Below, one piece after another: positions 198 through 4,715 of a stretch of DNA of 19,288 nucleotides. The stretch lies in assembly GCA_007131945.1 (NCBI GenBank), contig SLPP01000195.1, forward strand, positions 1 to 19,288, read 5' to 3'. Position numbers and translations under genes: made by a program. Within the stretch, counting starts at the first letter, position 1, and every line of letters begins with the position of its first letter. The DNA comes from Paracoccaceae bacterium (GTDB lineage Bacteria; Pseudomonadota; Alphaproteobacteria; Rhodobacterales; Rhodobacteraceae). The notes beneath the pieces are model-generated. The model had not been told where the DNA came from and searched no databases. It saw only the letters and a program-made list of their open reading frames with translations.

Positions 198-1280
198 TCA
201 AAGCAGATGCCCCGACTTTTCCGCCTTGACGGCGAGATAGGCGGCGTTCTCGTCGGTGCGTCCGGCCTTGAGCGGCACGCGCTCGACCACGCGGATGTCG
301 CCCTTTTCCAGCATCGCCACCTTGGCCGGGTTGTTCGTGAGCAGCCGCACCCGGGAAAAACCGAGCCGGCGCAGCAGTTCCGCGCCCAGCCGGAAGTCGC
401 GCTCGTCATCCTCGAAACCCAGCCGGTGGTTGGCCTCGACCGTGTCGAAGCCCTGGTCCTGCAGCGAATAGGCGCGCATCTTGTTCGCCAGCCCGATCCC
501 GCGCCCCTCCTGGTTGAGGTAGAGCAGGATGCCGCTGCCGGCCTCCCGCATCGCTGCCAGCGCCGCGTGCAGCTGCGGCCCGCAGTCGCATTTCAGCGAG
601 CCGAGCACGTCGCCGGTGAAGCAGGCCGAGTGCAGCCGGGCGAGGACCGGGGCGTGGCGGTCGGGGCGGCCGACCTCGATCGCGTAATGCTCGACCCCGC
701 CGTCGTCGGGGCGGAAGACATGCAGCCGGCCGGCGCCGGCGAGCCGCATCGGCAGCCTTGCGGCGATGACCGGGGCGAGGCGGGTCTCGGGCATGTCGGT
801 CTCGGTGCAGCGCAGCACGGTCAGGCCATGCGCGGCGGCGAGGGCGGCGGCCTCGGGCGTCTCGGCGACGACGGCGGCGGGCAGGAGCTGGGCCGACTTC
901 ACCAGCCGTATCGCCGCGCGGTGCAGATCGGCCGGCCCCTCGCGCCGGGTGACCAGCGGCCCCTTCATCGGCTGCGCGAGGTCGTCGGCGGGATCGGCCA
1001 GCGCCTCGAGCCAGTCGGTGCCGGCGTCGGGCGGGATCACGACGCGGGCCACGTCGCCGTCATAGGCGCGCGCCTTCAGCGTCTGCGCGCGGTGGCCGGT
1101 CAGCGCCAGCACCGGCTCCGCCGCGACCCGGCGCAGATCGGCGAGGCGGTCGGGGGTCAACCCCTCGGCGGCGATCACCAGCGCCGCGCCGGGGCCGTCG
1201 GTCAGCGCCACCGGCAGGCCCATGCGCAGGTCGGCACGGGCCCGGTTGAGGCGTTCGAGGGGGCTGGGAAAGAGGCTCAT
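198..1280 (-). CDS. ribA: GTP cyclohydrolase II with degenerate DHBP-synthase-like N-terminal domain
   Basis: This 360-residue cytosolic enzyme opens the GTP ring in the first step of riboflavin synthesis. Residues about 185-360 form a complete GTP cyclohydrolase II domain: zinc ligands C220, C231 and C233, the [11 protein letters not shown] loop (254-264), DERDF (292-296), LLTNNPAK (313-320) and the family-typical C-terminal end KAEKSGHLL. Residues 1-180 resemble RibB in layout (AAE near 37, LADP near 94, a PAAVVAE segment near 134), but the acidic DDEDRENEGD metal/substrate motif of RibB is not recognisable, so this half is probably inactive in DHBP synthesis. I chose the ATG giving MSLFPSP; further upstream the frame is unlike protein. 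The Shine-Dalgarno match before it is poor. The gene is divergent from the response regulator, and no FMN riboswitch is visible upstream. Confidence 0.9.
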
Positions 1281-1416: not shown

Positions 1417-1462
1417 GCCCAACAGGTCTTCACCAAATCGAGAACCTGTCATGGAGCATGGC

Positions 1463-2149
1463 GTGGCAAAGCTGAACAAGATCCTTCTCGTCGATGACGA
1501 CGCGGACCTGCGCGAGGCGCTGGCCGAGCAGCTGGTCATGACCGAGGATTTCGACGTCTTCGAGGCCGCGGATGGCGCCGAGGCGATGGAAAAGGCCAAG
1601 GCCGGGACCTTCGACCTGGTCATCCTCGATGTCGGCCTGCCCGACACCGACGGACGCGAGCTCTGCAAGCGGATGCGCAAGGCGGGTGTGAAATGCCCGA
1701 TCCTGATGCTGACCGGGCACGACAGCGACGCCGACACGATCCTCGGCCTCGACGCCGGTGCCAACGACTACGTCACCAAGCCGTTCAAGTTCCCGGTCCT
1801 GCTGGCGCGCATCCGCGCCCAGCTGCGCCAGCACGAACAGTCGGAGAACGCCATCTTCCAGCTCGGCCCCTATCAGTTCAAGCCGGCGCAGAAGATGCTG
1901 ATCGACGAGCGCGAGCGCAAGATCCGGCTGACCGAGAAGGAGACAAACATCCTGAAGTTCCTCTACCGCGCGCCCGAGGGCGTGGCCGCGCGCGAGGTGC
2001 TCCTGCACGAGGTCTGGGGTTACAATGCCGGCGTGACCACCCATACGCTGGAGACGCATATCTACCGGCTGCGCCAGAAGATCGAGCCCGACCCGTCGAA
2101 CGCGCAGCTTCTGGTCACCGAGCCGGGCGGCTACCGACTGGTTCCCTGA
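1463..2149 (+). CDS. Orphan OmpR/PhoB-family response regulator
   Basis: This is a two-domain DNA-binding response regulator of 228 residues. The receiver domain (about 1-120) has the acidic cluster DDD at 11-13, phosphoacceptor D56 in ILDVGLPD, T84 and K106 in VTKPF. The OmpR-type winged helix follows at about 130-228, with recognition-helix region TTHTLETHIYRLRQK and C-terminal wing GGYRLVP. I prefer the GTG start at 1463 because GGAG (1453-1456) lies 6 nt before it; an in-frame ATG at 1451 has only a weak ribosome-binding site. No histidine kinase is adjacent, so the partner is encoded elsewhere. The output domain reminds me of CenR of the CenK-CenR envelope-control system in Caulobacter and Rhodobacter, but this is memory-based, so no symbol is given. 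Confidence 0.9.
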   Translation: MAKLNKILLVDDDADLREALAEQLVMTEDFDVFEAADGAEAMEKAKAGTFDLVILDVGLPDTDGRELCKRMRKAGVKCPILMLTGHDSDADTILGLDAGANDYVTKPFKFPVLLARIRAQLRQHEQSENAIFQLGPYQFKPAQKMLIDERERKIRLTEKETNILKFLYRAPEGVAAREVLLHEVWGYNAGVTTHTLETHIYRLRQKIEPDPSNAQLLVTEPGGYRLVP

Positions 2150-2167
2150 GCCGTCACCGAACCCCGC

Positions 2168-2234
2168 GCGGCCCCGGGTCACGGGCCGCATCCTCCCTGT
2201 TGGACTGGCCCGGGCCTCGCGCCCGGGTCCTTTT
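2168..2234 (+). ncRNA. Candidate small RNA, unit 1 of three (CCTCCC core plus terminator)
   Basis: The layout is a perfect 7-bp hairpin (GCGGCCC 2168-2174 with GGGCCGC 2183-2189), the core TCCTCCCTGTTGGACT (2191-2206), then a 9-bp terminator hairpin (2207-2215 with 2221-2229, one G-T pair) and TTTT (2231-2234). The 16-nt core CCTCCCTGTTGGACTG recurs at 2906 and 3037 while the terminator stems differ. CCTCC in the core can pair with GGAGG Shine-Dalgarno sequences, as in the CCUCCUCCC RNAs (CcsR/cuckoo, ar14/ar35) known in alphaproteobacteria. It lies directly downstream of the response regulator and could be made by processing of that mRNA. Membership in a named family is inference. Confidence 0.55.
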
Positions 2235-2235
2235 C

Positions 2236-2751
2236 CTACTGTGCCTCGAGAACCAGATCCAGATCGGCGATGACCTGAATGCGGTCGTCGGGATCGAGGG
2301 TTTCCGTGGCGATGCTGACCATCCGCTGCAGGTCGGCCTCGACCGCGCCGGTCAGGTGCAGGCGCTCATCCTCGATCCGCGCGTCGGTGAGCGTGACGCG
2401 GACATCCGCCATGTCGTCTTCCGGCACGTAGAGCTGCCGCACGCCGTTGGCATAATAGGTCACGTAACCCGAGAGCAGCGCCAGATCCGTCTGGCCGCTC
2501 AGCGTGAGCGAGATCTCGACGGCCCCGGAGACCCGGGCGAGGTTGCCGGCCTCGGGGAAGCCGAAGATCGTGGCCTGGACCAGCGGGCCGGTCTGGTTCC
2601 AGCTGGCGCCGGGATCGCCGTCCATGTCGAGCACGTGCCATTCCCGCGCCTCGCCCCCGACGGTGCCGGAGAAACTGCCGAGCACAGACTGCGCCGAAGC
2701 AGGCGCGATCGACAGGGCGAGGGCGGCGAGGGCGGCGGGCAGATGTCGCAT
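2236..2751 (-). CDS. Small exported protein of unknown function
   Basis: I do not recognise this 171-residue protein. The first 20 residues are a clear Sec signal peptide (hydrophobic run AALAALALSIA, cleavage expected after APASA). The mature part begins QSVLGSF, is rich in short beta-strand-like segments and acidic residues, and has no cysteine, lipobox or membrane segment, so a periplasmic or secreted beta-rich protein is likely. The start has a moderate purine-rich sequence (AAAGGGAAA) upstream. The gene is flanked by the small-RNA modules: unit 1 ends two bases before its stop codon, and units 2 and 3 lie upstream of its start on the other strand. It is convergent with the response regulator. 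Confidence 0.75.
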   Translation of the reverse strand: MRHLPAALAALALSIAPASAQSVLGSFSGTVGGEAREWHVLDMDGDPGASWNQTGPLVQATIFGFPEAGNLARVSGAVEISLTLSGQTDLALLSGYVTYYANGVRQLYVPEDDMADVRVTLTDARIEDERLHLTGAVEADLQRMVSIATETLDPDDRIQVIADLDLVLEAQ

Positions 2752-2823
2752 GATCGGTTTCCCTTTCGGTTTGCGTCCGGTGTCGCGGGAAGCCTATCAC
2801 CCCGGCACCGGCGGCGCACCCTG

Positions 2824-2949
2824 CGTTAACCCTTGGGTAGGGATTCGGTGCCACAATGTTCTCATCAACCTCCTCCCCTTGGCGTGTCGGGGCAATGGCA
2901 CGTCTCCTCCCTGTTGGACTGTCCGGGCCCCTCGGCCCGGACTTTTTTT
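2824..2949 (+). ncRNA. Candidate small RNA, unit 2 of three, with leader and strong terminator
   Basis: The core TCCTCCCTGTTGGACT is at 2905-2920. It is followed by a perfect 9-bp stem (GTCCGGGCC 2921-2929 with GGCCCGGAC 2934-2942) and seven T (2943-2949), the best intrinsic terminator in the window. A 6-bp 5' hairpin (2881-2886 with 2899-2904) precedes the core, as in unit 1. A second anti-Shine-Dalgarno motif, CCTCCTCCCC, is at 2869-2878. The true 5' end is unknown; a GTTAAC (2825-2830) and a weak CTTGG...CACAAT promoter-like pair lie upstream, so the mature RNA may start anywhere from about 2860 to 2881. Confidence 0.6.
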
Positions 2950-2987
2950 CGTTGCCGCGCGACGAAACATGCATCCACGATCCCCGT

Positions 2988-3001
2988 TTGACCCATGTCA
3001 A
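2988..3001. promoter_or_regulatory. FNR/CRP-type dyad TTGACCCATGTCAA
   Basis: TTGAC-CCAT-GTCAA is a perfect dyad that fits the TTGA-N6-TCAA form bound by FNR/FnrL/DNR-type regulators. Its centre (2994.5) is 41.5 nt before base 3036, where the third small-RNA core starts. That is the spacing of FNR class II activation if transcription begins there, but no good -10 element is visible. Confidence 0.4.
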
Positions 3002-3035
3002 CGACAGGGGCGCCGCACCGGGCGAGTGTCAGCGC

Positions 3036-3089
3036 ACCTCCCTGTTGGACTGAACCCGGCCCGTGCCCCGCACCGCCGGGTTTTCTTTT
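3036..3089 (+). ncRNA. Candidate small RNA, unit 3 of three, upstream of xth
   Basis: The core ACCTCCCTGTTGGACT (3036-3051) matches units 1 and 2 over 16 nt. It is followed by an 8-bp stem (AACCCGGC 3053-3060 with GCCGGGTT 3075-3082) that holds an inner GTGC/GCAC hairpin (3063-3066 with 3070-3073), then TTTTCTTTT (3081-3089). The 5' part has only a weak hairpin (3011-3014 with 3021-3024). It ends 69 nt before xth and could be a separate RNA or a terminating leader of xth. Confidence 0.55.
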
Positions 3090-3158
3090 CCCGCCCGATG
3101 CGCTTTTCTGCGCTCCGAACCCGACCCGAGGCCCGATCCCGGCGCAGCAGGAGCCCGC

Positions 3159-3947
3159 ATGCCCTTCACCATTGCCACCTGGAACATCAACTCGGTCCGC
3201 CTGCGCGCGGGGCTGGTGGCGCGGCTTCTCGCCGAGGAGGCGCCGGACATCCTCTGCCTGCAGGAATGCAAGAGCCCGGTCGAGAAGATACCGGCCGAGG
3301 TCTTCGCGGCCGCGGGCTATCCCCACATGGTCGCGCGCGGGCAGAAGGGCTACAACGGCGTGGCGATCATCTCGCGCCTGCCCATCGAGGATGCGGGCCA
3401 TATCGACTGGTGCGGCAGGGGCGATGCGCGCCATGTCGCCGCGCGGCTGGAAAACGGCGTCGTGATCCACAACCTCTACGTGCCCGCGGGCGGCGACGTG
3501 CCCGACCGGGAGGCGAACGACAAGTTCGGCCACAAGCTCGATTTCGTGGCCGAGTTGCGCGACCGGTTCCGCGCCGACCGGCCCGAGCGCGCGATCCTGG
3601 TTGGGGACCTGAACATTGCCCCGCGCGAGGACGATGTCTGGAGCCACCGCCAGCTTCTCAAGATCGTGAGCCATACGCCGGTCGAGACCGAGGGGCTCGA
3701 GACCGCGCGCGCGGAGGGGCGCTGGGTCGACATCACGCGGCAGGACATCCCCGAGGGACAGCTCTACAGCTGGTGGTCCTATCGCAGCCCGGACTGGGAC
3801 GCCGCCGACAAGGGCCGCAGGCTGGATCATGTCTGGGCCAGTCAGGACATCGCCGCCGCGGGCCATTCGAGCCGCATCCTGCGCGCGGCGCGCGGGTGGC
3901 AGCAACCGTCCGATCACGCCCCGGTCTTCGCAAGTTTCGATCTCTAG
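3159..3947 (+). CDS. xth: Exodeoxyribonuclease III (AP endonuclease)
   Basis: This 262-residue enzyme incises DNA at abasic sites and removes 3'-blocking groups in base excision repair, acting in the cytosol. It has the full exonuclease III signature: WNINSVR (8-14), catalytic metal ligand E36 in LQECK, Y107 in NLYVP, GDLNIAP with D150 and N152, RLDHVW (221-226) and the C-terminal SDHAPV with D252 and H253. Length is normal for the family. The ATG at 3159 has AGGAG 5 nt upstream and gives the canonical N-terminus MPFTIATWN; the frame opens earlier, through the unit 3 terminator, but that part is not protein-like. A GC hairpin (3949-3955 with 3964-3970) follows the stop. Confidence 0.95.
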   Translation: MPFTIATWNINSVRLRAGLVARLLAEEAPDILCLQECKSPVEKIPAEVFAAAGYPHMVARGQKGYNGVAIISRLPIEDAGHIDWCGRGDARHVAARLENGVVIHNLYVPAGGDVPDREANDKFGHKLDFVAELRDRFRADRPERAILVGDLNIAPREDDVWSHRQLLKIVSHTPVETEGLETARAEGRWVDITRQDIPEGQLYSWWSYRSPDWDAADKGRRLDHVWASQDIAAAGHSSRILRAARGWQQPSDHAPVFASFDL

Positions 3948-4580: not shown

Positions 4581-4715
4581 CACTGTCCTTCGGTCCTCCG
4601 GCGCTGCTGCACCAAGATCTTCCGGTCGGGCATATCCGGTTCGCGCGACCCGAGGAAAGCCGTTGCGGGAGGCGGCAGGAAATACGGGAGGTTGTGTGAC
4701 GCACGGATCACGTGT

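Follow-up and report, generated by a model that had tools for sequence, protein, structure and literature searches.

A SorX locus with two SorX copies and a probable hairpin-less sibling behind an FNR-type palindrome in a Paracoccaceae bacterium

What are the three copies of a C-rich 15-nt core, CCTCCCTGTTGGACT, that follow an OmpR-type gene in this Paracoccaceae genome, and do they all belong to one kind of RNA? The window analysed here (the whole 19,288-nt stretch of contig SLPP01000195.1) carries the core on the plus strand in what we call units 1, 2 and 3 (Table 1); the copies are exact, without a mismatch, at the places given in a preliminary description of the DNA, which listed a 16-mer version (CCTCCCTGTTGGACT plus a final G) that ends one base further on. 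That description also placed a GC stem and a T-run right after each copy, and these are indeed present in all three units: the stems GGCCCGGGC, GTCCGGGCC and AACCCGGC lie directly 3′ of the core in units 1, 2 and 3, respectively, and are followed by T-rich ends. A terminator scan of the window picks up the terminators of units 1 and 2 but does not report that of unit 3, because its loop exceeds the limit of the scan.

There is no fourth copy of CCTCCCTGTTGGACT in the window at three or fewer mismatches, and at that threshold a mean of 0.30 matches is expected by chance, with three reached in 2 of 200 dinucleotide shuffles. The whole genome (G000; 3,292,963 bases in 417 contigs, 92% complete) contains six matches at up to two mismatches; three are the exact copies in the window, and each of the other three has two mismatches.

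Table 1. Features of the SorX locus and its surroundings, in window coordinates
Feature	Position	Strand	Basis or remark
ribA, GTP cyclohydrolase II	198..1280	-	PF00925 and NCBIfam ribA; upstream end of conserved neighbourhood
OmpR-type response regulator, counterpart of R. sphaeroides RSP_0847	1451..2149	+	PF00072, PF00486; same place before SorX in G051
Unit 1 (SorX)	2161..2234	+	RF02784, 69.8 bits, cut-off 46.6
Unit 1 core	2192..2206	+	Exact match
Unit 1 terminator stem and T-rich end	2207..2234	+	Terminator scan
Convergent gene for 171-aa protein, between units 1 and 2	2236..2751	-	Family unassigned
Unit 2, free-standing SorX with genus-typical 5′ hairpin	2875..2948	+	RF02784, 61.1 bits; hairpin comparison
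Unit 2 core	2906..2920	+	Exact match
Unit 2 terminator	2921..2948	+	Terminator scan
FNR-type palindrome TTGACCCATGTCAA	2988..3001	+	Pattern match; same place in relatives
Weak -10 slot GAGTGT	3024..3029	+	22 nt past box, where relatives show TAnnnT
Unit 3, predicted hairpin-less sibling RNA, start A3036	3036..3090	+	Box geometry; RF02784 match 3015-3088, 35.7 bits
Unit 3 core	3037..3051	+	Exact match
Unit 3 terminator: stem AACCCGGC with inner hairpin, T-rich end	3052..3090	+	Fold and sequence
xthA, exodeoxyribonuclease III	3159..3947	+	TIGR00633, 162.5 bits, cut-off 99.05

Family identity and neighbourhood

A search with the Rfam covariance models, one of the checks that the preliminary description had proposed, assigns units 1 and 2 to SorX (RF02784), both above the curated cut-off of 46.6 bits, while unit 3 falls below it (35.7 bits, E 1.1e-6) with most of the SorX 5′ hairpin deleted in its alignment to the model. 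The short 5′ hairpin said to be common to units 1 and 2 is borne out, as both align to the SorX 5′ hairpin; the distinct subfamily that was suggested is already represented in Rfam, as SorX.

The preliminary description had related the units to the cuckoo/CcsR RNAs, which, like CcsR1-4 and ar14, share with them a C-rich single-stranded stretch and an occurrence in several copies; the tandem layout and a single CCTCCTCCC at 2869-2877 also speak for this identity. That kinship did not survive comparison: the ar14 model reaches only 17.9 bits at unit 2 against a cut-off of 58.8, whereas SorX fits units 1 and 2 above its own cut-off. Short DUF1127 proteins are often found with CcsR-like RNAs (PMC10253847), yet neither DUF1127 nor any other Pfam domain was found in the five ORFs scanned among the 15 listed for 2100-3170, and the OmpR-type and xthA genes that flank the units have domains other than DUF1127. 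It is thus extremely improbable that the units are cuckoo/CcsR RNAs, and by sequence comparison this is a SorX locus rather than a cuckoo array. The small-RNA reading itself, with its invariant C-rich core and its variable but pairing stems, stands. The CCTCCTCCC at the 5′ edge of unit 2 may be a second anti-Shine-Dalgarno stretch.

SorY (RF02651, formerly RSs1543) was also tried as an identity for the units and rejected. Its consensus carries the same core, CCUCCCUGUUGGACU, followed, as in the units, by a terminator, but it differs in its 5′ hairpin and its genomic place, and units 1, 2 and 3 score 24.5, 28 and 21.8 bits, far below its cut-off of 111, with a model so narrow that it exceeds that cut-off in only 1 of 248 family genomes. 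SorY was found at E≤1e-4 in 226 of the 248 family genomes and not in the window's genome, where a search for its neighbourhood (query: the LysR-type gene beside SorY of G254) gave a best match of 35% identity; either loss or a gap in the 92% complete assembly could account for this.

RF02784 is widespread in the family, with matches at E≤1e-4 in 234 of 248 genomes (above the cut-off in 197) and in none of 14 control genomes. Within the genus, every one of the 18 genomes has between one and five matches at E≤0.001; at this level the 14 controls give one match (Caulobacter), which is below the cut-off, and among 16 genomes of the class outside the family seven match, none above the cut-off. In four loci from other Alphaproteobacteria (L222, L223, L224 and L225, near 1500-1575), CCTCCCTGT-NNN-ACT lies before a GC stem and T-run, in most cases with AGACGTGAA or a similar sequence in front of it; these elements, at which every Rfam family stays below its cut-off, are possibly an older relative of SorX.

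The surroundings are those of SorX as well. Unit 1 begins 12 bases past the OmpR-type gene (which has no NCBIfam equivalog above its cut-off among the matches listed), and unit 2 lies further along the ribA-ompR-xthA interval, behind the convergent gene. The 171-aa protein of that gene has no Pfam or NCBIfam match, and relatives at 38-41% identity occur in the same interval of two genus genomes (G253 and G261). In 86 loci a SorX-type core follows an OmpR-type gene (40 come from loci chosen for the exact core, 45 from family-model searches, and one is the window); ribA is present in 79 of them, and xthA is seen downstream in 56 (in 50 of these no more than 1200 bases away); many of the loci are too short to include it.

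The preliminary description also held that the stems differ but keep pairing while the core stays constant, and proposed that the core should be conserved before the hairpins in related genomes; both points are confirmed by the SorX alignment. In this alignment (A1) of 47 SorX sequences, which includes units 1 and 2 and leaves out L155 (from the same interval as L029), L219 and L220, CCTCCCTGTTGGA is invariant. The 5′ helix covaries: its seven pairs all show changes on both sides, pairing is kept in 98.4% of cells, and the covariation score was reached by none of 500 shuffles. Both-sided changes occur in four of the eight terminator pairs. The 14-nt core CTCCCTGTTGGACT is perfect in 37 of 45 first ompR-linked elements retrieved with the family model; seven of the others differ from it at one position and one at two. 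These observations bear on the idea that the units are mere terminators without action in trans. Every unit does end in a terminator and unit 1 does follow a gene, but the invariant part is the core before the terminator, while the terminator pairs vary, and SorX of R. sphaeroides is a 75-nt RNA that inhibits potA translation (PMC6238624, PMC9438474), so we give this idea next to no credence.

Folded alone, unit 2 adopts the family fold; the minimum for unit 1 differs from it because its GC-rich stems can pair together. The 5′ hairpin of unit 2 is of a type common to G251, G252, G253, G259, G260 and G261, and that of unit 1 is of an altered type common to G256 and G254. In G256 the counterparts of units 1 and 2 adjoin, and in the window the minus-strand gene lies between them. 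The simplest reading of these two units, judged from their sequences, would be a duplication of SorX in this branch.

The third unit and its palindrome

The preliminary description treated the three copies as a single family. This applies to units 1 and 2, which are SorX, but not to unit 3, which appears instead to be a hairpin-less sibling behind an FNR-type box that the description had missed. TTGAY-N4-RTCAA, which we take to be the FNR-type consensus and use here to call boxes, is present in its TTGAC..GTCAA variant upstream of unit 3, with its centre 41.5 bases before A3036. FNR class-II promoters have the site centred at -41.5 and the -10 hexamer at -12 to -7. Since the palindrome lies at the class-II distance, the unit 3 RNA would start at the core. 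The -10 slot, GAGTGT, is poor and does not conform to the TAnnnT hexamer 22 nt past the box, and a sigma-70 promoter scan of 2050-3200 found no promoter. In a predicted fold of the RNA that starts at A3036 the SorX 5′ hairpin is absent and the core is mostly unpaired except for its GG; in a longer RNA starting at 3015 much of the core is paired.

Between ompR and xthA, 12 of the 18 genus genomes, the window's own included (G000, G222, G248, G249, G252, G253, G255, G257, G258, G260, G261 and G262), carry a counterpart of unit 3, and none was seen in the intervals of G251, G256, G259 and G263; for this count G254 offers a stretch without xthA, and the ompR interval of G250 was not taken in. When the 12 elements are compared (with G258 represented by the matching interval of L094), the palindrome, core and terminator are kept and the sequence between them drifts. 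The palindrome is exact in ten of the 12 and has two mismatches in G255 and G260.

Unit 3 might be a decaying SorX duplicate that has lost its 5′ hairpin and its promoter and in which core and terminator linger. Its score below the SorX cut-off, its weak -10 slot and the lack of a counterpart in G256, which has units 1 and 2, are in line with decay. We nevertheless regard it as unlikely, given that 12 of the 18 genus genomes have the hairpin-less element, in which box and core persist despite the drift between them, and that the window's genome itself has an undamaged core and a palindromic box. That unit 3 might be a leader or attenuator of xthA, rather than a separate RNA, is suggested by its end about 70 bases before the xthA start. 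In relatives, however, xthA begins several hundred bases further from the element: counted from ompR, the element and xthA lie at 445 and 1014 in G222, at 254 and 835 in G257 and at 559 and 1339 in G261. This variable distance indicates that element and xthA are not tightly coupled, and a leader seems very unlikely.

The same box recurs at SorX loci elsewhere in the family. An exact box lies within 100 nt upstream of 27 of 216 SorX-type elements that had been selected independently of it; the reversed stretches have none, and random windows taken from the same loci have about 1.2 per 216. (L228-L239, loci chosen by the box pattern, are excluded from the counts of 216, 86 and 37, and duplicates among the elements in the box scans and the -10 table were removed by sequence, not by genome.) In these 27 the box-to-core distance clusters at 35-36 nt (nine elements) and at 65-66 nt (14 elements). 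A family-wide pattern of exact box plus SorX-type core is found at a spacing of 28-40 in 12 of 394 genomes and at 54-84 in 62, with the reversed patterns in none of the 394; the two sets of genomes do not overlap, and an exact box at either spacing is thus present in 74 of 394. Of 37 elements with a box of at most one mismatch, 24 have TA 22 nt past it, compared with seven or fewer at each of the other 13 offsets tabulated, and in most of the TA-bearing elements a start six bases past the hexamer coincides with or adjoins the first SorX base (ATCCCG, AACCCG) or the core start. The layout of box, 22 nt, TAnnnT, 6 nt and start in the relatives is, as read from sequence, the geometry of an FNR class-II promoter.

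Not every box has this layout, and most SorX loci are without a clear box. Ten further loci were drawn from the 28-40 pattern, and in five of them (L228, L229, L230, L233 and L234) the box lies directly against the SorX 5′ hairpin, 37-39 nt before the core, with no -10 at offset 22; these boxes perhaps serve repression or another start.

Where an interval holds several elements, the box marks the last. At least two elements are present in 13 of the 86 ompR-linked intervals, and three in only one, that of the window. In 11 of these 13 the box (at most two mismatches; nine exact) precedes only the last element, at 35-36 nt, and the sequences before the earlier elements have at least three mismatches to it; the exceptions are L111 and L193 (from G256). 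L111, from a Gemmobacter MAG, has SorX-type cores at 4630 and 4777 after ompR and an FNR-type box before neither. Among the intervals with a single element, 73 in number, a box with no more than one mismatch is present in 27 and absent from 46.

SorX biology, FnrL and targets

In Rhodobacter sphaeroides SorX, formerly RSs2461 (PMC5036791, which also gives RSs1543 as the former name of SorY), is a small RNA that originates in the 3′ UTR of an OmpR-type gene; RNase E matures it from a 116-nt precursor to 75 nt (PMC6238624). It is Hfq-dependent and inhibits translation of potA, with the effect that spermidine uptake is lowered under singlet oxygen and organic hydroperoxide stress (PMC9438474), and it is controlled by RpoE, RpoHI and RpoHII (PMC8307010). 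Model searches place SorX at 2,598,225 and SorY at 1,632,645 on contig C4 of G051; this matches the published R. sphaeroides positions of 2,598,224 and 1,632,642 (PMC6238624), and G051, which has two RF02784 matches at E≤1e-4, is therefore treated as that species. Units 1 and 2 agree with SorX of R. sphaeroides in their score above the cut-off, 5′ hairpin, core and terminator, and unit 1 also in its place after the OmpR-type gene; the window differs in having two SorX copies in one interval, and unit 3 differs from SorX in its lack of the 5′ hairpin and its score below the cut-off.

The window's genome encodes FnrL, which has a cysteine-rich N-terminus and scores 459.7 bits with NF045989 (cut-off 300), and by its sequence the box of unit 3 would be a binding site for this protein. 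ChIP-seq in R. sphaeroides located FnrL at the putative promoter regions of RSs0019 and RSs2461, for which the authors could not establish an influence of FnrL; the same source reports that CrpK binds motifs similar to those of FnrL (PMC4263372). At the R. sphaeroides SorX locus (L148, 1424-1471), the palindrome TTGCGTGAGATCAA, with two mismatches, is followed by 22 nt and TATAAA between the ompR stop and SorX. The implied start, 2,598,196, and the published end of pre-SorX, 2,598,182 (PMC6238624), are 14 nt apart, and because of this gap the former does not explain the latter. The sources found on SorX together with FnrL, among which the original SorX and SorY papers are not counted, draw no link between the two in the parts available; a literature search for FNR-dependent anaerobic small RNAs of Alphaproteobacteria found none, and the papers listed for the core sequence as letters are unrelated. 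The closest parallel is FnrS of Escherichia coli, which is FNR-controlled (PMC4263372): unit 3 is predicted to be switched on at low oxygen in the same manner, but this control is established for FnrS and predicted for unit 3, and no kinship in sequence is claimed.

Candidate targets were sought by comparing 21 potA-like loci with the core; L240-L243, the best potA matches of their genomes, have no recognised Walker motif and were evaluated separately. With several start codons tried for each gene, the best core duplexes in the L240-L243 group have -25.1 (G256), -19.6 (G000), -13.7 (G222) and -12.7 kcal/mol (G252), and those in a second potA-like group, which holds the best potA match of G051, have -21.4 (G222), -17.6 (G051), -16.0 (G256) and -15.7 kcal/mol (G000). 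Random 65-mers reach -16.2 kcal/mol at the 5% level and -18.5 at the 1% level. Pairing of the core with potA-like start regions is inconsistent across genomes. In L246 (G222; start at 1380), CCAACAGGGGG stands before the GTG of a potA-like gene and forms 11 pairs with the core; its -21.4 kcal/mol, again with several start codons tried, is beyond the 1% level of random stretches.

A shared seed under different promoters

Comparison with relatives establishes the SorX identity of units 1 and 2, the neighbourhood, the conserved structure, the promoter layout in relatives and the FnrL gene, all at the level of sequence; for the window's genome we infer from it the transcripts, FnrL binding, targets and division of labour. 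It seems probable that units 1 and 2 are SorX, that unit 3 is a sibling that shares their seed but has no 5′ hairpin, and that they are switched on by different signals. With the help of Hfq, all three units would block translation through pairing of their C-rich core with ribosome-binding sites; the published counterpart is the translational inhibition of potA by SorX in R. sphaeroides, and the core is its presumed seed. Unit 1 would be released from the 3′ UTR of ompR in the way known from R. sphaeroides, and unit 2, lying behind the unit 1 terminator and a convergent gene, would need its own promoter. Unit 3 would be transcribed from an FnrL-type class-II promoter at falling oxygen, with its start at the core. 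Oxygen control would then lie on SorX in some genera and on the hairpin-less sibling in this one, and with a shorter sibling behind an FnrL-type site, one RNA core may answer two different alarms.

A wider reading, to which we give even chances as a whole, is that the Rhodobacteraceae drive one invariant 13-nt RNA seed from several promoters. The FNR-type site found in about one-fifth of the genomes (74 of 394) would often be placed to make SorX a primary transcript of an FnrL class-II promoter, and SorX would then be more than a fragment processed from a 3′ UTR. In the present genus FnrL control would have shifted to the sibling without a hairpin, whose first bases are the seed, and SorX would be left with the oxidative-stress branch.

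In sum, a known RNA lies here in its usual setting, in duplicate and next to a sibling of a less usual kind; the noteworthy part of the locus is the FNR-type promoter layout, and no priority is claimed for the FNR-linked sibling. The conserved layout at many SorX loci, together with the sibling, would account for the FnrL ChIP-seq site at RSs2461, and it would provide directly testable sibling small RNAs with a shared seed and different promoters. If the wider reading is true, the same targets would be repressed under singlet oxygen or peroxide and on oxygen depletion, and oxygen sensing would be joined to the oxidative-stress RNA network through SorX, which has so far been described as an mRNA-derived stress RNA.
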